Part shown: positions 3,098-33,173 of the stretch, piece after piece
How the letters are laid out: each line of letters begins with the position of its first letter
Position numbering within the stretch: the first letter of the stretch is position 1
DNA from: Acidobacteriota bacterium
GTDB taxonomy: Bacteria > Acidobacteriota > Vicinamibacteria > Vicinamibacterales > JAFNAJ01
DNA length: 33,173 nt
Direction of reading: 5' to 3'
Assembly (NCBI GenBank): GCA_016789685.1
Contig: JAEUQQ010000521.1
Location: 1 to 33,173, forward strand
Notes under the pieces: model-generated
What the model was told of the DNA's origin: nothing
Seen by the model: the letters and a program-made list of their open reading frames with translations, nothing else
Databases searched by the model: none
Position numbers and translations under genes: made by a program

Positions 3098-4089
3098 GCG
3101 AGAAGCCAGACGTGAGCGACGCGCACGACCTCCCGACGCCCGAGACCGGCCTCGAGCCCGATGACCTCGACGGACCTGGTGCGACGCTGACGCACGACGA
3201 GGACATCGCCGAAGCCATCGACGCCACCATCATGGGCGACGAAGACGACGACGAGCCTGCGGCACCCGAGGATGCCGTGGACCCCGCGGCGGCCGATGCC
3301 TCAGCGCAGGGCGACATCGAGCCCGAGACCGTCGTGCCGCCTCCCGACGACCAGCTGATCGCCATCGTCGAGGCGCTGATCTTCGCGTCACCCGATCCCA
3401 TCACGCTCAAGGCCCTGACCAAGCTGCTCGAGCCCGAACCGGCGGTGCGCATCGAGGCCGCGATCGAGTTGCTGAAGGCGCGCTACGACGACGCGCGCGG
3501 CCTGACGGTGGTCGAGGTGGCCAACGGCTACCAGATCGTCACGCGCCCGGAGCTGCACGAGTGGGTGCGACGGCTCTTCCACGAGCGCACGACGCAGAAG
3601 CTGTCGGTCGCGGCCCTCGAGACGCTTGCCGTGATCGCCTACAAGCAGCCGGTGACGGCGGCTGAAATCGCCGAGATCCGGAGCGTGAACACGTCGGGTG
3701 TGCTCGGCACGCTGATGGACCGCAAGCTGATCAAGATCGCCGGCCGCAAGGCCGTCGTCGGGCGGCCGTTCATGTACGCCACGACACGCGAGTTCCTCGA
3801 GCGCTTCGGGCTGCGCGACCTCAACGACCTGCCGAAGATCGAGGACATGGCCGACGTGCTGGGCTTCGATCCGCCCCTGCTCGACGACACGGCCGTGGCA
3901 ACGGCGTTGCCGTTCGACGGCGCCGTCGATCCGTCGCTGACGCCGGTCGGCGTGGGGCCACTGGGCGCGGCGTCGAGCCCCGGCGCTGAGGCCACCGTGG
4001 CGTCCGTCGACGACCTGTCGCCGCCGGCCGACGACGTCGAGGAGACTGCGTCGGACGACGACGAAGGGCCTGGCGAGCGCGATGCCTGA
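3094..4089 (+). CDS. scpB: Segregation and condensation protein B with long acidic flanks
   Basis: ScpB dimers bind ScpA in the SMC condensin complex. The conserved core, two winged-helix domains, spans about residues 87-255: it begins at LIAIVEALIFASPDPI and includes LAVIAYKQPVTAAEIAEIR. At 331 residues the protein is well above the usual 180-220. The excess is an 85-residue N-terminal and a roughly 75-residue C-terminal region, both rich in Asp, Glu, Pro and Ala and probably disordered. The start is the ATG overlapping the scpA stop. The 3' end overlaps the next gene by eight bases. The role of the acidic flanks is unknown. Confidence 0.95.
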   Translation: MSEKPDVSDAHDLPTPETGLEPDDLDGPGATLTHDEDIAEAIDATIMGDEDDDEPAAPEDAVDPAAADASAQGDIEPETVVPPPDDQLIAIVEALIFASPDPITLKALTKLLEPEPAVRIEAAIELLKARYDDARGLTVVEVANGYQIVTRPELHEWVRRLFHERTTQKLSVAALETLAVIAYKQPVTAAEIAEIRSVNTSGVLGTLMDRKLIKIAGRKAVVGRPFMYATTREFLERFGLRDLNDLPKIEDMADVLGFDPPLLDDTAVATALPFDGAVDPSLTPVGVGPLGAASSPGAEATVASVDDLSPPADDVEETASDDDEGPGERDA

Positions 4090-4819
4090 GGAACGTCTCC
4101 AGAAGATCCTGTCGGCGGCCGGAGTGGCCTCGCGGCGTGCGTCGGAGCAGTTGATCCTCGACGGGCGCGTCAGCGTGAACAACGTCACGATCCTCACGCT
4201 GGGATCGAAGGCCGATCCGCAGCGTGACGACATCCGCGTGGATGGCAGCCGCGTCCGCCCCGAACGCCTGCGGTACCTGCTCCTGAACAAGCCCGAGAAG
4301 GTGGTCACGACGCGCAACGATCCCCAGCGCCGGCGCACGGTGGTGGATCTGCTCCGCGGGGTCAAGGAATCGGTCTACCCGGTGGGGCGGCTCGACTTCG
4401 ATTCGGCGGGGCTGCTGTTGCTCACGAACGACGGTGACCTGGCGGCGCGGCTGATGCATCCGCGGCACGGCATCGAGAAGCTCTACCGGGCCGATGTGCG
4501 CGGGATTCCGTCTGAACCCGAGCTCGAACGCCTCGCGGATGGCATCGACATCGACGGCCAGGTCACGCTGCCGGCGCGCGTGCGGCTGGTCAAGGCGATG
4601 CCGTCGGCCCGTGGCGAGGGGGCGGCGGTGCTCGAGATCGCGATTCGCGAGGGGCGCAACCGGCAGGTGCGCCGGATGTGCGAGGCGGTCGGCCACCCCG
4701 TCCTGCGCCTGACGCGCGTGGCCGTCGGGCCGTTGCGCGACAAGGAGCTGCGTCCCGGCGAGTGGCGTGACCTGACCGCGCGCGAAGTCGAGACGATCAA
4801 GAACGCCGTCGCCGACTGA
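4082..4819 (+). CDS. rluB: 23S rRNA pseudouridine synthase, RluB/RsuA family
   Basis: Converts a specific uridine to pseudouridine in rRNA; the RluB branch modifies 23S rRNA at helix 89. The N-terminal S4 RNA-binding domain (about residues 1-60) opens with RLQKILSAAGVASRR. The catalytic domain carries the catalytic aspartate at residue 105 in GRLDFDSAGLLLLTNDGDL. The later motif REGRNRQVRRM is also typical. The length of 245 residues is normal. The gene starts inside the end of scpB (8-base overlap), completing the trpS-scpA-scpB-rluB order seen in many genomes. RluB is favoured over RsuA from this context only; family membership is secure. It ends five bases before a convergent gene. Confidence 0.9.
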   Translation: MPEERLQKILSAAGVASRRASEQLILDGRVSVNNVTILTLGSKADPQRDDIRVDGSRVRPERLRYLLLNKPEKVVTTRNDPQRRRTVVDLLRGVKESVYPVGRLDFDSAGLLLLTNDGDLAARLMHPRHGIEKLYRADVRGIPSEPELERLADGIDIDGQVTLPARVRLVKAMPSARGEGAAVLEIAIREGRNRQVRRMCEAVGHPVLRLTRVAVGPLRDKELRPGEWRDLTAREVETIKNAVAD

Positions 4820-4824
4820 CCCCG

Positions 4825-5982
4825 TCAGCGCGACAGCATCGCCGCCCAGAAACGCACCAGCCGCCACACCTCGCGGACGGTCGGCGGCCGATCGACTTCG
4901 GCGTGCGTGATCAGGGGCGTCACCTGCACGCGCACGTCGACGCCCTGCCGCGCCAGCAGCGCGCCGAGCCGTTCGGACTCGATCGCCGGCACGACGTTGT
5001 CGTCGGCCCCGTGCAGCAGGAACACCGGCGCGCGCGGGGGCGGGGCCGAGGCCGGCGACACCGCGGCCGGCAGCGCCGCGCGCTCCACCGCAGGCAACAG
5101 GACGCTGCCGAGCCGGGCGACGTCGCGGGTGTTGACCGCGTGCAGCAGGCCGCGTGCGGGTTCCTCCAGCATCGGTTCCAGGGCCACCGCTTCGGCAAAC
5201 ACGTCGGCCGCCCGTGCCTGATCGACCATGTCGATGTGCGACGCGCGCATGAACAGGTTGATGCCGCGCGCGAGGCCGGCGACCTGCTCGGGCGGCACCA
5301 CCGAGGTGGCCAGGTTCAGTAACACCACCACCAGCCCGTAGTCGTGCGGGGGACGGACCCTGCCGTCGGCCTGCACGCCCGTGCAGAGATAGCGCAGCGT
5401 CTGCTGCAGGTCGCCATGCCCGCCGAAGGCCATGACGTACGCGATGTGGTCGCGCACCTGTGCGCGACCGGCCGCCACGACCGACAACCCGCCGGCGAAG
5501 CTGATGCCGACGAGGCCCACGCGCCGATCGGCGGCGAAACGTCGCTGCGGCACGAGCCAGGCGGCGACGTCCTCGATCTGATCGGGGAGCCGCGGCGTGA
5601 TGCGGTACTCGAGCAGGTCGGGCAACTCGATCGTGACCACGCCCAGGCCGCCCGTGGCGAGGTCGCGGGCGAAGCCCACCAGGCGGGGCTCATCGAGGCC
5701 CTCGGCGTGCACACCAGGGGTCAACACCACGGTGCGGCGCCAGGCCGCCCCCGGGGCGTAGAGGCGCGCGCGGATGGCCCCGTGCCGGGTCGGGATGGTG
5801 AGATCCTCGGTGTGCACCGGGTGGGCGTCGAGCGCGGCCAGGCGGTCTTCGACGCCACCGTGCAGCCTGGCGGCGCGCACCACCAGGCCGGCACCGCGCA
5901 GCACGTCGGCGGCGGGGATGGCGGCCACCAGCGCGAGCGACAGCAGGCCGTGCACGAGGGCAATGGTGAAGACGCGCGACAT
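4825..5982 (-). CDS. Alpha/beta hydrolase with N-terminal signal anchor
   Basis: A 385-residue serine hydrolase of the dienelactone hydrolase/acyl-peptidase-like alpha/beta fold. A hydrophobic N-terminus (residues 4-25) is a signal peptide or membrane anchor, which places the enzyme outside the cytoplasm or at the membrane. The predicted triad is Ser161 in the nucleophile elbow GISFAGG, Asp328 in HGADDNVVP and His360 in LITHAEV. A beta strand plus TPGVHAEG segment near residue 85 probably supplies the oxyanion hole. The substrate cannot be read from sequence. It is convergent with the rluB-like gene (5 bases apart) and divergent from cmk, with an AT-rich hexamer ATATTA at 6003-6008 between them as the only promoter-like element noticed. 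Confidence 0.8.
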   Translation of the reverse strand: MSRVFTIALVHGLLSLALVAAIPAADVLRGAGLVVRAARLHGGVEDRLAALDAHPVHTEDLTIPTRHGAIRARLYAPGAAWRRTVVLTPGVHAEGLDEPRLVGFARDLATGGLGVVTIELPDLLEYRITPRLPDQIEDVAAWLVPQRRFAADRRVGLVGISFAGGLSVVAAGRAQVRDHIAYVMAFGGHGDLQQTLRYLCTGVQADGRVRPPHDYGLVVVLLNLATSVVPPEQVAGLARGINLFMRASHIDMVDQARAADVFAEAVALEPMLEEPARGLLHAVNTRDVARLGSVLLPAVERAALPAAVSPASAPPPRAPVFLLHGADDNVVPAIESERLGALLARQGVDVRVQVTPLITHAEVDRPPTVREVWRLVRFWAAMLSR

Positions 5983-12870: not shown

Positions 12871-13698
12871 ATGTCGTCGAGTGATTCGGTCAGCCACCTG
12901 GAGCAACTCGCCAGCGAGCACCCCATGGTCGTGGTGTCGCTGGCGCGCACCCTGTACGCCTTGCCCGTGATGAACGTGCGCGAGATGGTATCGACGCCCG
13001 AAGTGCGTTCGATTCCCCATCCGCCCCCGGGCGTCCGCGGCCTGATCAACCTGCGAGGGTCCGTGCTCCCCCTGTTCGACCTGCGGTCGTGCTTCGGCAT
13101 GGCGACCCAGCGTGACGAGTCGCTCGCCTTCGTGGCGATGCTCAAGCAGCGCAAGCAGGATCACAAGCGGTGGCTCGACGAACTCGCGGCGAGTGTCCGC
13201 GAGGGCCGCGCGTTCACCCTGACCACCGACCCGCATGCGTGCGCCTTCGGACGGTGGTACGACACCTACAAGACCGACAACCTCATGCTCGATACCGTGC
13301 TCCGGCGGTTCGACGAGCCGCACAAGCGGGTGCACGCGCTCGGCGCCGACGTGGTCGGGCTCGTCAAGGCCGGCAAGCAGGACGAGGCCCTGGCGCAGAT
13401 CGAAGCCGCGCGCAACGGCGTCCTCAGCCAGATGATGACCCTCTTCGATGCGGCCGAGGAGATCATCGGCGCGGCCAACCGCGAAATCTCGGTCGTGGTC
13501 TCGAACGCCGGCAAGTCGTGCGCGGTGGCCGTCGATGCCATCGAGTCGGTCGAGCGTCTCTCGCGCGACGGCGTGACGGGGATGGACGAGGCGATGGCCG
13601 GTCAGCGCGTCCAGTCGATCCTGGGCGTTGGCCGCCGGACGAAGGACAACGCCTTCGTCCTCATCCTCGACCCGGCGATGTTCCTCGGGGCGGCCTGA
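12871..13698 (+). CDS. CheW-like chemotaxis coupling protein with nested CZB zinc-binding domain
   Basis: CheW proteins couple chemoreceptors to the CheA kinase. In this 275-residue protein the CheW fold is split. Residues 19-77 form the first half (VRGLINLRGSVLPLFDLR) and residues 205-272 the second (REISVVVSNAGKSCAVAVDAI, then SILGVGRR). Between them, residues 84-203 match a chemoreceptor zinc-binding (CZB) four-helix domain, with ligands His98, Cys124 in CAFGRWYD, His151 and His155; the 27- and 4-residue gaps between the last three equal those of the DgcZ CZB domain. CZB domains bind zinc and respond to zinc or to Cys oxidation. No other chemotaxis gene is nearby, so it serves a remote array. 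ATG at 12871 lacks a clear Shine-Dalgarno sequence. Confidence 0.88.
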   Translation: MSSSDSVSHLEQLASEHPMVVVSLARTLYALPVMNVREMVSTPEVRSIPHPPPGVRGLINLRGSVLPLFDLRSCFGMATQRDESLAFVAMLKQRKQDHKRWLDELAASVREGRAFTLTTDPHACAFGRWYDTYKTDNLMLDTVLRRFDEPHKRVHALGADVVGLVKAGKQDEALAQIEAARNGVLSQMMTLFDAAEEIIGAANREISVVVSNAGKSCAVAVDAIESVERLSRDGVTGMDEAMAGQRVQSILGVGRRTKDNAFVLILDPAMFLGAA

Positions 13699-22968: not shown

Positions 22969-24738
22969 CTAGTCCTCGTCGTCGATGCGCGTCGCGAGCA
23001 CCGACCCGTCTGACTGCGACACGCCCTTGACCTCGATGCGCATACCCGTCTTGAGCGCCGCGAACGCGCTGGCAGCCTTGCCGCGGTACTCGGTGGCGGC
23101 CGTCACGGTGACCGTGCGGCCACCAACCGTCAGCCTCCCGTTCGCGGCCGAACCGCTCACCGCGGTGATGCTGCCGACGAACTCGACCTCGCTGACGGCG
23201 CCCGTCGGGTCGCTCTCGATCGTGAGGCGCGTCGCGGTAATCGAGCCGTCGGCGGCGCTGGTGCCCTTCACCTCGATGGCCTGACCGGTACGCAGCGTGC
23301 TGAAGCCGACCTCGTTGCCACTGCGGCGGACGACCGTCGCGCCCGTCGTCTTCACCGTGCGCCCGGCGACCGTGAGCGTCAGGCTCGGCGCGCTTCCCGA
23401 CATCGCCGTGAGGTTGCCGAGGAACTCGACCTCGGTTACGACCGGGTTCGTGCCCGTCACCCCGTCTTCGGCCTGGACCTTGCTCGCGACGACCGTGCCG
23501 TTTGCCTCACGGATGCCCTCCACTTCGACCGTCGTGCCGTTCGCCACCGCGGCGCATGTCAGCTTCAGGAAGGAGGTCGAGGCCGTCGTGCGGACCGCGG
23601 TGCCGGCCACCGAGAAGGTCAGCGCAGGGCATCCGCCGCCCAGGCCCACGACCGCGCCGCGGACGTTGACCTGCGCACCGACACCGGGTGCCGGGGTTGG
23701 CGTCGGGGTCGGCGTGGGGATCGGCGTCGGCGTGGGGGTCGGTCCCGTCGCCACGCCGTCCTCGGCCTGTACCTTCGTCGCGTTGATGGCACCGCTGCTG
23801 TCACGCACGCCTTCGACTTCCACCGTGTCGCCAGCGCGCAGGTCTGCGCAGGTCAGCTTGACGAACGAGGTCGGCGCGGACGTCCGGATGGCGCTACCGG
23901 CGACGTTGAACGAGAGCGAGGGGCACGACCCCGAGATAGCCGACACGCTGCCGCGGACGTTGACCTGCGTCCCGACACCGGTGCCCGGCGTGGGCGTCGG
24001 CGTAGGTGTCGGCGAGGGCGTCGGCACCGTCGCCGCGCCACCAAGGATCTCGATCTGCGTGGCCAGCACGGCGTCGTTCTGCGGCTGTCCCTTGACCTCG
24101 ACGCGCAGGCCGTTCGAGAGGTCGGCGAACGTGCGATGCACGCTGCCTTCCTCGATCTTCGTCGCGCCGGTGGCCTGCACGCGTCGGCCGGCAACTGTCA
24201 GGCTCAGGCCCACGCGGTCGAGGTTGTCCACGATCCCGGTGACGCGCAGTTCCTGTGCGGAGTCGCGCGACAGCGAGACAACGACCGCCGTCGAGCCCGT
24301 GACCGACACCGTCATCGAGATACGCTCCTGGCTGGCGACGCCGCCGATGGCGACGGCCGCGTCGGTGCCCGAGCCGGTGAACCGCAATTGCGCGTCGCCG
24401 CTCGGCACGTCGTCGAAGGCGAAGCCCCCACGGTCGTCGACCGTCTTGACCTGGCCCGTGCCAACGAGTTGCACCGACAGGCCCGATGCCTGCGCGCGGA
24501 TGCCGCTGCCGCCGCCGATGCCCATGACGCTGCCGGTAATCGACGCGCCCTGCCCAGTCGAGGGCGGCGCCGGCGTGGTTGTCGGAGGCGTCGTCGACGT
24601 GGTGGCCGTTGGCGGCGGGGTCGCGGCGGTGGTGCTCGGCGCGAGGGGGTTGCCCTTGCCGCCTCCGCAGGCGACGGTGGTCAGTGCGATGGCCACGACG
24701 GCCGCGAGCGACGAGTGACGGGTGAACGAAGCGAACAT
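22969..24738 (-). CDS. Lipoprotein with five tandem DUF5666-like repeats and Pro-Thr linkers
   Basis: A 589-residue exported lipoprotein. The signal peptide ends in the lipobox TVAC with Cys24 as the lipidated residue, then a Thr/Pro-rich tether (residues 30-62). Residues 64-160 form one beta-rich domain. Five repeats of about 70 residues follow at roughly 163-231, 257-327, 356-426, 436-509 and 517-588; each is an OB/beta-barrel-like unit with a SVSAISG-type start, an LTVAGRTV-type core and a VEVKG-type end, matching DUF5666 by pattern. Repeats 2 and 3 each have a Cys pair 25 residues apart and are flanked by poly-(Thr-Pro) linkers. The start has GGGAG seven bases upstream. Function is unknown; cell-surface display is likely. 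Confidence 0.85.
   Translation of the reverse strand: MFASFTRHSSLAAVVAIALTTVACGGGKGNPLAPSTTAATPPPTATTSTTPPTTTPAPPSTGQGASITGSVMGIGGGSGIRAQASGLSVQLVGTGQVKTVDDRGGFAFDDVPSGDAQLRFTGSGTDAAVAIGGVASQERISMTVSVTGSTAVVVSLSRDSAQELRVTGIVDNLDRVGLSLTVAGRRVQATGATKIEEGSVHRTFADLSNGLRVEVKGQPQNDAVLATQIEILGGAATVPTPSPTPTPTPTPGTGVGTQVNVRGSVSAISGSCPSLSFNVAGSAIRTSAPTSFVKLTCADLRAGDTVEVEGVRDSSGAINATKVQAEDGVATGPTPTPTPIPTPTPTPTPAPGVGAQVNVRGAVVGLGGGCPALTFSVAGTAVRTTASTSFLKLTCAAVANGTTVEVEGIREANGTVVASKVQAEDGVTGTNPVVTEVEFLGNLTAMSGSAPSLTLTVAGRTVKTTGATVVRRSGNEVGFSTLRTGQAIEVKGTSAADGSITATRLTIESDPTGAVSEVEFVGSITAVSGSAANGRLTVGGRTVTVTAATEYRGKAASAFAALKTGMRIEVKGVSQSDGSVLATRIDDED
23686..23742 (-). repeat. Thr-Pro linker microrepeat, second copy
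   Basis: Encodes (Pro-Thr)n with one Ile interruption at residues 333-351 of the lipoprotein; a shorter sister copy lies at 23986-24024. Such linkers are extended and flexible in secreted proteins. The six-base periodicity makes the region prone to length change. Confidence 0.8.
23986..24024 (-). repeat. Thr-Pro linker microrepeat, first copy
   Basis: Encodes PTPSPTPTPTPTP at residues 239-251 of the lipoprotein, between the first and second repeat domains. It is the sister copy of the linker at 23686-23742. Confidence 0.8.
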
Positions 24739-28733: not shown

Positions 28734-28775
28734 AAAAAACTACGACGCGGGCGCCCGGGCCCCGGGCCCGGCGCC
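28734..28775 (-). terminator. Hairpin plus T6 at the 3' end of the TPR-CHAT gene
   Basis: On the minus strand the last codons of the CHAT gene form an 11-pair stem (GGCGCC and GGGCC arms, one bulged base, 28750-28775). After the TAG stop comes TTTTTT (28739-28734). The T-run starts 10 bases from the stem, too far for a textbook terminator, so partial termination or attenuation is more likely. A TATATT box follows before the zinc-finger gene. Confidence 0.4.
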
Positions 28776-31628
28776 GCCGACGAGCACATAGGGGGCCCAG
28801 AAGAAGGGATGGGGATCCCGCTCGCGAGCCGTCCGCATGGCCCCGCGGAGGGCATGGGCCAGGTTGTCGGTGGTGCCGCCAGCACGGCGGTAGAAATCGG
28901 CCATCAGCGCGGCCGCCGACTCGTCGTGCGCGTCCCAGAGCGTCACCAGGACGGCCTGGGCGCCAGCGTACAGCAAGCCCCGCGTGAGGCCGATCAGGTC
29001 GTCGCCGCCGGTCACGACACCGAGGCCGGTGCCGCAGCCGCTGAGCGTGACGAGGTCGGCAGACAGGTGCAGCTGGTAGAGGTCGAACAGCGTCAGGTCG
29101 CCGTCGGCAAGGCGGATCGACGAGAACATCGGGTTGTCGTTGCGGAAAGTGCCGTGCGTCGCGATGTGGATGGTCTGGCAGGCCGGGCCCGCCTCCCTGA
29201 GGGCCGCCGCCGTGGCGTCCTCGCCCAGCAGCACCCGGGCGCCGGGGCGCGTGGCCGCGACGGCGCGAACCTCGCCGGGAATGGCCGGCGTCGCGTCGTC
29301 GCTGACGCCCATCACCAGGAGGCCCTGCCCCATCCCGCGTGCGCGCGTCGCGCAGGCGTGCCAGACGCTGGCGCTCGGGGCGTACGACAACGACCACCGG
29401 TCGAGGACCCAGCCCTGCGCGTCTCGCAGCGCGTGGACAGGAATTGCGTGCAGCACCCCGTGCGGGACGACGACCAGGTGGCTCGCCGCGCCGAGATGGC
29501 GGGCAATGGGATCGATCAGCAGGGCGCCGAGCCGCCTGAGGTGCGCGTAGACGGCGTCGAGGCCCGCGCTGGCCATGGGCGGGCGCTGTGACGCCAGGCG
29601 GTGACGTGACAGCTGGAACTGCAGTAACCGCCACGCTTCGTGCACCGCGGCCATCGGTCCCAGTCGATCGACGGCGATGCCTCCGAGGCCAATCGTGACC
29701 GCGATCAGCGTGCCCCGGGTTTCGTAGTATTCGACGAGCACCGTGTCGGCGGGCATGCGGGCGCGGATGTCGTCGAGCGGCACGCTGCGGCCCGTGTGCA
29801 GCGCGACATAGTCGGAGCCTGCTGGCATCGACTGGAACACCTCGACCAGCGCACCTTCGCAGTCCTGCGCCTCGCGCCGGAGTCGCGCGAGCCTGGCGCC
29901 GTCGTCGCCGGGCACGGCCTCGGCGCGGGCGATGTCGCGCTGCACCCCGTGCAGGCGGGCACGCAGATGCCGTAGCTGGTCGCGGACCTCGTCGCCGACC
30001 GTCGCCGGGGCGGTGAGCAGGTGCGCCTGGGCCGACATGGCGTCGGCGAGGCTCCGCGCCTTGGCGCGTTCGATCCACGCGAAGGTGTCGGCGATCGGCA
30101 GCGGCGGCGGCAACTCGAGGCCGAGCCAGACGAGGCTCTCGAAGACCGCCTGCTTGTTGTCGAGGAATGCCGCACGCAGGTCGTGGTGGTGGAGCCGGCC
30201 GCGCAGGTCGTCGATGCAGCGCGCCGCGCGCTGCCATTCGGCCCTCGCGCGGTGCAGCCGCCCGGCGGCCTCCTCGATCTGCGCGAGCGTGACGTGCGCG
30301 TCGTACCGCAACGCCGGCAGCGCGTCGCCGATGCGCCCGATGACGGCATGGCAGCGATCGCGCGCCGCGTCGTGCGCGTGCCGCCTGACGTCGAGCCGGG
30401 CGAGCAGCAGGTCGGCGAGCGCGAGTTTCGACACGGCATCGGTGACCACGAAGGTCGCGCGCGCTGCCTCGCAGAGGCGACGGGCCAGGCGGGGACGCTC
30501 GGCCTCCATGGCGAGCGCGAGGTGGAGGTCGATGAGCGCCGGCCACAGGACATTGCGCTCGGCGACGAAGAGGCGGCGCGCGATCCGGAACCGCCGGATG
30601 GCCAGTGCCGCCTGCCCCCGGCGTCCCTCGGCCACGCCGAGCAGGGCCAGCGCCTTGGCACGTTCGTAGCCGAGGCCGAGTGTGCGGAACTGCGCGCCGG
30701 CGCGCTGCGCGAGGCGCGCGCCTTCATCGACGAGGTTGAGTTCGAGCGACAGTTCGGCGCGGTCGAGATCGCACAGGGCAGCGTGATAGTGGTCGCCTGC
30801 CGCGAGGGTCCGTGCGCGTGCGACCCGGTACAGCTCGATCGCCTCGGCGTAGTCGCCGCGCATGAAGAACAGGTAGGCGATGTTGTAGTCGGCCTCGGCG
30901 ACCAGCATCGCCAGGCCGTGCTGCTCGCACCAGCTGCGCGCCTCGCGGTAGGCCGCGAGCGCCTCGTCGAACGCCGCGCGCGAAATCTGGCAGACGGCAA
31001 GGTTGCGCAGCGCGATGGCCACGTCCTGCGTGGCACCCGCTGCCCGGAATGCCACGAGCGCCGTCGTGTACTGGGCGAGCGCCTCGTCCAGCCGATCCTG
31101 GCGGTAGAGGACGTTGCCGACGTTGGTCGCCAGGCGTGCCAGGCGCAGGTCGTCGCCGGCGGCGCGGAACGCGGCGCGTGCCTCGGCGGCCCATGCAAAG
31201 GCGTCGTCGTAGCGCCCGAGGTAGATGAGCGTCTGCAGGGCGCCGCTCTGCGTGATGGCCCGCTCGAGGGGGGCGTGCGCGTCGTCGAAGCGGGCCAGCG
31301 CCGCCGTGTACGCCGCGAAGGCGTCGGCGAAACGGTTCTGCAGGGCCAGGATGTGGCCCTGCGCGCGGAGGACGCGCCCCAGTGCCTGCGGATCGATCGC
31401 ACGCGCGGCCGCCTGGCGGGCCAGGTCGGCCAGCGCGCTCGCCGTCTCGAGGTCGACGCGGGCGTGCGCCGTGGTGGCCTCGGCCAGGGCCAGCGTCAGG
31501 GCGTCGATCCCCGCGGGATGCCCGGCCAGCAGGCGGTCGAGGGCCTCGCGGCGTTCGCCGGCCGGCCGCTGCAGCAGGGTCGCCACGGCGCCGCGGGCAT
31601 CGTGCGACGCCTGGTCAGCGGATGACAT
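28740..31628 (-). CDS. TPR-CHAT domain protein (caspase-like cysteine protease)
   Basis: A 962-residue cytoplasmic protein. Roughly residues 60-480 are tetratricopeptide-like helical pairs (LGRYDDAFAWAAEAR, QDRLDEALAQYTTALVAFR, RGDYAEAIELYRVARAR). The C-terminal third is a CHAT peptidase domain of the caspase-separase clan, with the catalytic dyad His825 in IHIATHG and Cys865 in TLSGCGTG, and the usual DLVTLSGC context and GLLYAGAQAVLVTLWD. CHAT proteases cut specific partner proteins when their sensor part is triggered. The start is ATG at 31628, inside the end of the sigma factor gene (14-base overlap). A zinc-finger gene and a subtilase lie downstream. The substrate is unknown; an anti-sigma-like partner is the natural candidate. 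Confidence 0.9.
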   Translation of the reverse strand: MSSADQASHDARGAVATLLQRPAGERREALDRLLAGHPAGIDALTLALAEATTAHARVDLETASALADLARQAAARAIDPQALGRVLRAQGHILALQNRFADAFAAYTAALARFDDAHAPLERAITQSGALQTLIYLGRYDDAFAWAAEARAAFRAAGDDLRLARLATNVGNVLYRQDRLDEALAQYTTALVAFRAAGATQDVAIALRNLAVCQISRAAFDEALAAYREARSWCEQHGLAMLVAEADYNIAYLFFMRGDYAEAIELYRVARARTLAAGDHYHAALCDLDRAELSLELNLVDEGARLAQRAGAQFRTLGLGYERAKALALLGVAEGRRGQAALAIRRFRIARRLFVAERNVLWPALIDLHLALAMEAERPRLARRLCEAARATFVVTDAVSKLALADLLLARLDVRRHAHDAARDRCHAVIGRIGDALPALRYDAHVTLAQIEEAAGRLHRARAEWQRAARCIDDLRGRLHHHDLRAAFLDNKQAVFESLVWLGLELPPPLPIADTFAWIERAKARSLADAMSAQAHLLTAPATVGDEVRDQLRHLRARLHGVQRDIARAEAVPGDDGARLARLRREAQDCEGALVEVFQSMPAGSDYVALHTGRSVPLDDIRARMPADTVLVEYYETRGTLIAVTIGLGGIAVDRLGPMAAVHEAWRLLQFQLSRHRLASQRPPMASAGLDAVYAHLRRLGALLIDPIARHLGAASHLVVVPHGVLHAIPVHALRDAQGWVLDRWSLSYAPSASVWHACATRARGMGQGLLVMGVSDDATPAIPGEVRAVAATRPGARVLLGEDATAAALREAGPACQTIHIATHGTFRNDNPMFSSIRLADGDLTLFDLYQLHLSADLVTLSGCGTGLGVVTGGDDLIGLTRGLLYAGAQAVLVTLWDAHDESAAALMADFYRRAGGTTDNLAHALRGAMRTARERDPHPFFWAPYVLVGGAGPGARAPAS

Positions 31629-32193
31629 CGCCGAGCAGCTTCTGCAGCTTCTGGAGGCAACGCCCCCGGATGAAGCCAATCGACCCGACCGCGAGGTTCA
31701 GGTGACGCGCCAGGTCGGCGTACGCGATGGGCGGCTGCGTGAAGAACAACAGGCGGATCATCTCCTGGCAGCGCGGGGTGAGCTGTGCGACCGCCTCGCG
31801 GATCGACTGCTCGCGTTGCACCGTCTCGAGGACGTCGGCCTCGGGCGGCGCCGCCGCCACGTCCGTGTCTTCGTCGAGCGGGGTGCCCTCGCGCTCGCTC
31901 CGCTTCACGTATCGCCGCTTCCAGTGGAACGCGTGATGTGACGCCACCGTCAGCAACCACGCCCTGAGGCTCGCCACGCTCCGCAGCTTCGGCAGCTCGT
32001 TGTAGAGATCGACGCAGACGGACTGGAACACATCGGCCGCGTCGTCGGGCGACATCCGGTACTTGCGCGGCACCGAGTAGACGAGGTTCTTGTACTTGTC
32101 GATGAGCGCCGACCACGCCTGCTCGTCGCCTGCCAGGCACGCCGCCACGAGGCGGTCGTCGTCCCACGTCCGCGAGGGTGTGCCGATCGTCAT
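31615..32193 (-). CDS. RNA polymerase sigma factor, ECF-like
   Basis: A 192-residue two-domain sigma factor. Region 2 spans about residues 15-95 (LVAACLAGDEQAWSALIDKY, DVFQSVCVDLYNELPKLR, LRAWLLTVASHHAFHWKRR); the Trp-Lys-Arg-Arg end is the -10-binding helix. Region 4 (about 130-188) has a helix-turn-helix, PPIAYADLARHLNLAVGSIGFIRGRCLQKL, that recognises -35 elements. The linker is acidic (DEDTDVAAAPPEAD). The ATG overlaps the solute-binding gene stop (ATGA), and the end overlaps the TPR-CHAT start. Longer in-frame sequence upstream is a shadow of the solute-binding gene. It is likely autoregulatory for this operon, which cannot be shown from sequence. Confidence 0.93.
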   Translation of the reverse strand: MTIGTPSRTWDDDRLVAACLAGDEQAWSALIDKYKNLVYSVPRKYRMSPDDAADVFQSVCVDLYNELPKLRSVASLRAWLLTVASHHAFHWKRRYVKRSEREGTPLDEDTDVAAAPPEADVLETVQREQSIREAVAQLTPRCQEMIRLLFFTQPPIAYADLARHLNLAVGSIGFIRGRCLQKLQKLLGDVIR

Positions 32194-33173
32194 CGCCGAC
32201 GCTCGCGTGCTCGCGCGGTCGTCCAGAACAGTTCGTCGGCGTTCCACAGCGTCGGGTGATCGAGCGCCGCAGGGCGCAGGTTGCCAAGCTCTGGCGGCGC
32301 CGCCACCAGCAGGTGCGGGGTTACGAGGGGCACCATGGCCACGTGTTCGTGGGCGATCGCCTGCACCCGGTCGAACAGCGCCTTGCGGCGCGCCGGGTCG
32401 AGCGTCTGGAACTGCTGGTCCATGAGCTGATCGATCTCGCGTTCCCACGGCGTCGCGGGCGCGGCCTGGTCAGGATGCCACAGGTGCGTCGGGCCGCTCG
32501 ACTTCCAGACGTTCACGTCGGCCGCAGGGTCAGCATCGCCGCTCGCAAGACCGAGGACGCAGGCGTCGTAGTCGAACGTGCGCGTCACCCGATCGAGCAG
32601 CGCGCGGAACTCGAGCGGCACGACGTCGATCTGCATGCCAAGCTGGGCGAGATCCTGCTGCACGATCGTCGCCATCTGCTGGCGTTGCTGGTTGCTGGCG
32701 GCGACCGCGATGGTGAACCGCACGGGGCGGCCCGTTGCGTCGTGCAGGACGCCGGCGCGCCACGTGAACCCTGCCGCGCCCAACTCGGCGCGGGCGCCGG
32801 CGATCGAACGCGGCCTCTCGGGAATCGCAGTGTTGTACCAGGGGCGATTCGCCGGCGAGAGCAGCGACCAGATCGGTCGCGCCTTTCCCTGGTAGACGAG
32901 CCGTGCCATGCCCGGCCGGTCGACGGCGTGCGCCACCGCGCGCCGGAACCGCACGTCGGCGAACCAGCCGCGGCGGGCCACGACGTCGGGCGAGGCCGCG
33001 GTCGGCACCGGGGTCAGGTTGAAGAACAGGAAGTTGAAGTCGAGCGTGGGCCCGGCATCGACGATGCGCGCCTTGCCTGCCATCGACTGCGTGAGCGCGC
33101 CCGCCGTTGCGGGCGTGATGCGCGTCAGCAGGTCGAGTTCGCCGGCCTGGAACCGCACGGCCTGCGCATCATC
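32190..33173 (-). CDS. ABC transporter substrate-binding protein, family 5 (C-terminal part, 5' end outside window)
   Basis: The last 327 codons of an SBP_bac_5 (peptide/nickel/oligopeptide) binding protein; the frame is open to the window edge, so the signal peptide and first lobe are missing. Characteristic blocks are VRFQAGELDLLTRI, FNLTPVPTA, RFRRAVAHAVDRPGMARLVYQGKA and the second-lobe DYDACVLGLASGDADPAADVNVW. It ends AMVPLVTPHLL and then an Arg-rich tail. Such proteins deliver peptides or other solutes to an inner-membrane permease, or act as sensors. Here the stop overlaps the start of a sigma factor gene (ATGA), an uncommon neighbour for this family. No permease is visible in the window. 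Confidence 0.9.
   Translation of the reverse strand, partial: DDAQAVRFQAGELDLLTRITPATAGALTQSMAGKARIVDAGPTLDFNFLFFNLTPVPTAASPDVVARRGWFADVRFRRAVAHAVDRPGMARLVYQGKARPIWSLLSPANRPWYNTAIPERPRSIAGARAELGAAGFTWRAGVLHDATGRPVRFTIAVAASNQQRQQMATIVQQDLAQLGMQIDVVPLEFRALLDRVTRTFDYDACVLGLASGDADPAADVNVWKSSGPTHLWHPDQAAPATPWEREIDQLMDQQFQTLDPARRKALFDRVQAIAHEHVAMVPLVTPHLLVAAPPELGNLRPAALDHPTLWNADELFWTTARARERRR

Follow-up and report, generated by a model that had tools for sequence, protein, structure and literature searches.

In most descriptions, CheW is a passive coupler. CZB domains bind zinc through three histidines and one cysteine (3His/1Cys) and respond to hypochlorous acid (PMC8262984, PMC6715182) and, according to a preprint, to zinc speciation under redox change (PMC13370339); their zinc affinity is extremely high in DgcZ (PMC8262984) and in TlpD (PMC6715182). 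Proteins that combine both domains form a published subgroup, CheW-CZB, which in the text of a 2021 mBio survey accounts for 1.4% of 10,140 CZB sequences, is reported as most abundant in Clostridia and has an Ala or a poorly conserved residue after the Cys (PMC8262984). The subgroup was named again in 2023, when CheW was proposed as a route of sensing for CZB or PAS domains fused to it (PMC10653840). In the running text of the literature covered for nesting, which includes sections of PMC8262984, PMC6715182, PMC13370339, PMC10653840 and PMC9321776, we found no description of a nested or inserted CheW-CZB.

The protein studied here belongs to this already known kind and is not a new kind: it contains a CheW-like and a CZB domain in one chain, with an Ala after Cys124. 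What we add is its nested anatomy, the distribution of 40 relatives, the retention of the zinc ligands and the gene context.

Gene, domain architecture and predicted zinc site

The gene lies at 12871-13698 (+ strand) of the window, by which we mean the whole 33,173-nucleotide stretch of DNA that was analysed, taken from an Acidobacteriota genome of 6.17 Mb in 777 contigs (92.4% complete). The open reading frame translates into 275 amino acids and a stop; it is recognised as a CheW-CZB gene by its translation, by its Pfam matches and by a codon-position GC of 0.68/0.44/0.91, as for coding sequence here (window GC 70%), the overlapping antisense ORF having 0.80/0.58/0.73. Its start codon is not certain, and inspection by eye revealed no obvious ribosome-binding site upstream of 12871. 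The flanking genes are a GNAT-type ORF and an acyl-CoA dehydrogenase, with an alginate-export-type porin on the opposite strand. Ten E. coli Che/Mot proteins used as queries on the window, and Pfam on 23 further ORFs (126 ORFs are listed for the window), revealed no che or mot gene besides this one, so that the gene is an orphan without che/mot neighbours; an operon partner within the window was sought by the same two routes and none was obtained. Elsewhere in the window, a TPR-CHAT protein (28743-31679, - strand) adjoins a sigma-70 region 2 protein (31618-32448, - strand), and a 589-aa protein (22972-24738, - strand) contains five DUF5666 stretches.

An orphan gene with an uncertain start codon and no obvious ribosome-binding site might be suspected of being an artefact: the product of a chance fusion, a misread frame or gene decay. 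We attach practically no probability to this reading: the codon composition is of the coding type, the AF2 model described below is confident and, decisively, the artefact is refuted because 40 relatives share the same order of parts.

Both domains score above their Pfam cut-offs, CheW (PF01584) with 85 bits against 23.5, in two stretches of which the best covers residues 19-95, and CZB (PF13682) with 48.4 bits against 29.4, over residues 98-162. When the genome was searched for CheW in six frames, the CheW profile was covered but broken into two pieces flanking the CZB domain, window 12925-13155 corresponding to profile positions 2-78 and window 13474-13686 to positions 66-134; alone, the second piece scores 22.6 bits, just below the cut-off. 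A profile built from a 38-row alignment of relatives matched E. coli CheW (2ho9) with its positions 1-73 on residues 4-76 and 200-271 on 84-153, placing the insert at the connection between the two lobes, at about residues 77 to 84 of E. coli CheW.

The AF2 model made with the same alignment has a mean pLDDT of 92.8 and a pTM of 0.82, and was used in place of a single-sequence model, which was poor (mean pLDDT 49.9). Strands are predicted within residues 19-70 and 206-266, and helices at 80-111, 125-132, 138-145, 148-166 and 170-202. Foldseek placed CheW structures at the top (2qdl_B, E 7.9e-9) and also matched the CZB domain of DgcZ (3t9o, E 2.5e-3, probability 1.00). Similarly, VIA-align superposed the CheW fold on 2ch4_Y (Z 16.9, 138 residues, 2.2 A, model 12-275) and the insert on 3t9o_B (Z 13.1, 115 residues, 2.4 A, model 83-201); as unrelated helical bundles also reach Z of about 13 in the same VIA list, the CZB assignment rests on the sequence match as well.

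As modelled, then, the protein is a two-lobed CheW fold split at its hinge by a CZB bundle. Lobe 1 comprises residues 19-78 (12925..13104, + strand; Pfam, PDB profile match to CheW first halves, AF2 strands), the nested CZB helical bundle residues 80-202 (13108..13476, + strand; Pfam, AF2 helices, 3t9o_B) and lobe 2 residues 204-272 (13480..13686, + strand; CheW profile match in the genome search, PDB profile second halves, AF2 strands). Both CheW lobes and the two-lobed fold are thus found by Pfam and structure comparison, and the CZB profile, the 3His/1Cys ligands and the helical-bundle fold of the DgcZ CZB by Pfam, alignment and structure comparison. A preliminary description, made from the sequence alone, had placed CheW halves at 19-77 and 205-272 around a CZB region of some 120 residues, which is right to within a few residues; the domain search it proposed returned both CheW and CZB, and the nested helical bundle it expected of a structure prediction appears in the AF2 model, whose helices fill 80-202 between the CheW strands.

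The predicted zinc ligands, all on the + strand, are His98 (13162..13164), Cys124 (13240..13242, also the predicted redox Cys), His151 (13321..13323) and His155 (13333..13335), which in the alignment with E. coli K-12 DgcZ fall on H22, C52, H79 and H83. As in DgcZ, the Cys and the two following His are spaced by 27 and 4, in agreement with the earlier assignment of these four residues, and the first spacing is 26 versus 30 in DgcZ. This alignment and the structural match to 3t9o make it probable that the four side chains are clustered, and the site is predicted to bind Zn(II).

All 38 rows of the alignment have the HCHH set and 37 have the spacing 26/27/4, the exception being L065 with a middle spacing of 37. 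Once three relatives found by profile are added, HCHH is present in 40 of 41 rows, L121 having LCHH with His98 gone. His151 and His155, which lie in neither of the two patterns used to find most relatives, are each present in 41/41 rows, counts free of pattern bias; Cys124 (41/41) and His98 (38/38 in the first alignment, 40/41 overall) each lie inside one of the patterns, and their counts are biased accordingly. The window protein has the motif CAFGRWY, with Ala at 125; this Ala is found in 38/41 rows, a residue that the search pattern favours, and Lys in the three profile-found rows.

Such a site might hold a purely structural zinc, always bound, in which case the insert would sense nothing and would serve for dimerisation or spacing, linking the CheW subunits of an array. 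CZB domains form homodimers through their N-terminal helix and the affinity of DgcZ is subfemtomolar (PMC8262984), the zinc of TlpD resists chelation (PMC6715182), and by analogy the extremely high affinity of CZB domains would also fit a structural role. A reactive Cys is not needed for such a role, yet Cys124 is kept in every row (in part through pattern selection), and CZB domains of other architectures are sensors, which by analogy would speak for sensing here too. We consider the structural reading unlikely, while giving it real weight, and regard the protein as rather probably an auxiliary CheW that joins receptor-CheA arrays and brings its own cytoplasmic zinc/redox sensor.

Relatives and history of the insertion

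Most relatives come from a single scan of 84,980 species genomes with the patterns DH[KR]RWL[DA]E and [TL]DPH[AQ]CAF, which yielded 49 loci: 36 intact nested ones, three interrupted ones (L056, L064 and L081) and ten others. The first alignment (38 rows) consists of the 36 intact loci, P0001 and L003, the C-terminus of L058 being cut by the locus end; the interrupted loci were left out for want of a single open frame across the match, and L082-L091 because reading and tblastn identified them as receptors with CZB, ordinary CheW and a GGDEF protein. Later addition of L119-L121 brought the alignment to 41 rows: P0001 plus 40 relatives, all of which have the CZB domain at the same hinge between the lobes. 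A Hydrogenedentes MAG has a tandem pair of CheW-CZB genes (L051, 4860-5678 and 6096-6938, + strand), the second of which is in no alignment.

The nested rows have ten phylum labels, taken from record titles, many of the records being MAGs: Thermodesulfobacteriota, Myxococcota, Hydrogenedentota, Acidobacteriota, Bacillota, Gemmatimonadota, Ignavibacteriota, Bacteroidota, Planctomycetota and Pseudomonadota. Within the window's class, a nested relative was found in 2/193 genomes, including the source genome, and CZB in 7/193; a third match, in G163, is confined to CheW lobe 1. G007 contains a relative with 40% identity. A phylum sample gave six of 396 genomes passing E 1e-25, one of them with the degenerate protein of L122 discussed below. 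Tblastn against a plasmid collection returned six records, all with partial matches of the CheW type that span less than 80% of the query. Designed PPR proteins, proposed by phmmer as CZB relatives, were rejected, as they match over a short helical stretch and, in the two chains shown, the pieces score 4.3-5.0 bits.

Trees were made separately for the two parts of the protein. With the CheW lobes, 37 of the 41 nested rows group together (87/89), leaving outside, on long branches, L065 and the gammaproteobacterial L066, L071 and L074; a single clade for all nested rows is not rejected by the AU test (p 0.29). With the CZB domain, a branch (74/97, not starred) separates all 41 from L122 and 23 other CZBs, namely those of receptors, cyclases and short CZB ORFs. 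Both trees are compatible with one CZB insertion, which they do not prove. Mean pairwise identity is 0.39 for the CZB insert (0.35 without the pattern columns) versus 0.31 and 0.25 for the lobes, so that among the aligned sequences the insert equals or exceeds the CheW lobes in conservation, the C-terminal lobe being the least conserved part (0.245).

A 672-aa triple-CheW protein encoded at L122 (802-2820, - strand; the same DNA as L123, 5938-7956) has an insert at the same hinge of its middle CheW domain, which matches the CheW-CZB profile with E 3.5e-32. According to the alignment, three of the four zinc ligands of this insert are lost and only the equivalent of His151 remains. Other genes of the cluster to which it belongs encode CheA, CheB, CheR and CheY-like proteins, together with a receptor that has two signalling modules. 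Because the tree joins the CheW part of this domain to a triple-CheW domain of G235 and not to CheW-CZB (96/85), L122 was left out of the family counts; no second protein of this sort was found in 142 genomes of its class at E 1e-20. A bundle that persists after its metal site has gone suggests that a zinc-free insert can be maintained, and this also favours a structural or spacing function of the insert.

Coupling residues and chemosensory context

The window protein has Glu38 (12982..12984, + strand) and Arg62 (13054..13056, + strand) at the residue numbers that they have in E. coli CheW, where an E38-R62 salt bridge holds the receptor and kinase sites in alignment (PMC3828127). Arg62 is Arg in 40/41 rows, and because E38 occurs together with R62 in only 21/41, the salt-bridge route is not general in the family. 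The CheW lobes of the gammaproteobacterial L066, L071 and L074 are very diverged, L071 being without R62, and given this divergence some gammaproteobacterial CheW-CZBs may not work as standard adaptors.

The CheA domain PF02895 was found in all 40 carrier genomes considered versus 61 of the 193 genomes of the window's class, the latter being a rough yardstick only as most carriers belong to other phyla. This set of 40 omits L055, whose genome is shared with L053, and the genomes of the three interrupted loci. Within assembly completeness, the adaptor is the only kind of CZB protein found in 31/40 carriers (29 with exactly one CZB match, and G649 and G647 with two each, both CheW-CZB), and further CZB matches occur in the other nine. 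The window's own genome has one CheA match, 16 MCP signalling-domain matches and another CheW (contig C470), cut by a contig end and situated beside an MCP.

With E. coli Tar as the query, seven of the 39 nested loci, intact and interrupted, showed an MCP within the sequence retrieved (L056, L062, L064, L069, L071, L076 and L077), and at the remaining 32, several of them cut by contig ends, no MCP was found. The sensor parts of these receptors are dCache (L056, L069, L077), double PAS (L071) and 4HB (L076). In L064, a receptor with its own N-terminal CZB (3251-4969, + strand) is directly followed by the interrupted CheW-CZB, which extends to 5745, so that receptor and adaptor of this gene pair have the same type of sensor domain. 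The receptor beside the CheW-CZB of L062 (6466-7443, - strand) has a c-type-heme-like CIRCH motif and a sub-threshold match to the Mcp40H-20 sensor; its frame meets an unknown base and resumes in another frame. In G235 (L124, 7870-15227), the CheW-CZB gene is followed, after about 1.8 kb, by genes for a receptor, a triple CheW and CheB, with a polyphosphate kinase 2 gene (PPK2) on the opposite strand in between; this receptor, in which no sensor domain was recognised, has two signalling modules, and the adaptor-borne sensor could be the input of a G235-type system.

The orphan position of the window gene and the 32 loci without an MCP count against the reading as a sensor-bearing adaptor, and a CheW-CZB gene without a fixed receptor partner is a further point for the structural reading. 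An improbable alternative is that the protein is a competitor or decoy, which would replace ordinary CheW on receptors or CheA and couple poorly, its abundance or zinc state setting the number of connected receptors. The second CheW and the many MCPs of the window's genome would suit a decoy, as would the weak conservation of the C-terminal lobe and the situation in G007, where a cheB-cheY-cheR-cheW-cheA-mot cluster on another contig (L116) has a CheW of its own. A decoy accords less well with the retention of Arg62 and Gly57, each in 37/38 rows of the first alignment, and with the several copies that adjoin MCP genes, as would be expected of a dedicated adaptor.

Proposed mechanism and comparison with known systems

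For an auxiliary CheW with its own sensor, we propose that loss of zinc, or oxidation of Cys124, would rearrange the bundle. As the bundle is anchored at either end in the hinge between the lobes, this change would displace the receptor- and kinase-binding faces relative to each other, and the altered geometry between the faces would in turn change CheA activity. That ligand or oxidation state might alter CheW-CheA coupling, as the preliminary description suggested, is plausible; it is not a new idea, its general form being already present in the text of PMC10653840.

The same description located CheW-CZB sensing in the coupling protein, moved there from the receptor. Its fold within a fold and its zinc ligands are borne out, and the relocation of sensing is overstated: as the genome keeps 16 MCP matches, alongside one CheA and another CheW, an input would have been added, not moved.

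As to the cue, many carriers bear the names of anaerobes, such as Acetobacterium, Desulfarculus and Sedimentibacter. A reading based on hypochlorous acid only was put aside on these grounds, hypochlorous acid being unlikely as the main signal of carriers that are by name anaerobes, and zinc availability or redox state appears the more likely physiological cue.

More generally, and more tentatively, the loop between the CheW lobes may be an allosteric entry point that evolution has used to plug a receptor-free metal or redox sensor into chemosensory arrays. An old and possibly single CZB insertion would then have given rise to a widespread adaptor-sensor, in most cases the sole CZB protein of the organism that carries it, with L122 as a second case in which the bundle was kept and the zinc site lost. 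A coupler with a conserved zinc/redox site, mostly in genomes with no other CZB, would be a clean system for the study of array output set by the adaptor, and the family would further reveal how CheA is controlled by movement of the CheW lobes about their hinge.

Compared with the CheW-CZB subgroup of the 2021 survey (PMC8262984), the proteins studied here have the same domain pair and Ala after Cys, and Bacillota-type names account for 15/36 intact loci; they differ in carrying nine phylum labels besides Bacillota, and in a nesting on which the sections of the survey covered here are silent. Both lobes are those of the CheW proteins of E. coli, T. maritima and T. tengcongensis (2ho9, 2ch4, 2qdl), with R62, G57 and E38 at residue numbers identical to those of E. 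coli CheW, but about 120 additional residues separate the lobes. The insert shares its fold and four ligands with the DgcZ CZB (3t9o), apart from the shorter first spacing given above, and whereas the output of DgcZ is a cyclase domain, here it is a CheW fold wrapped round the CZB. Finally, like CheWS (CheW-CheRlike) as presented in the text of PMC10653840, the protein is a coupling protein that incorporates a ligand-binding domain; the extra domain of CheWS is C-terminal and binds SAM, whereas here the sensor is nested.
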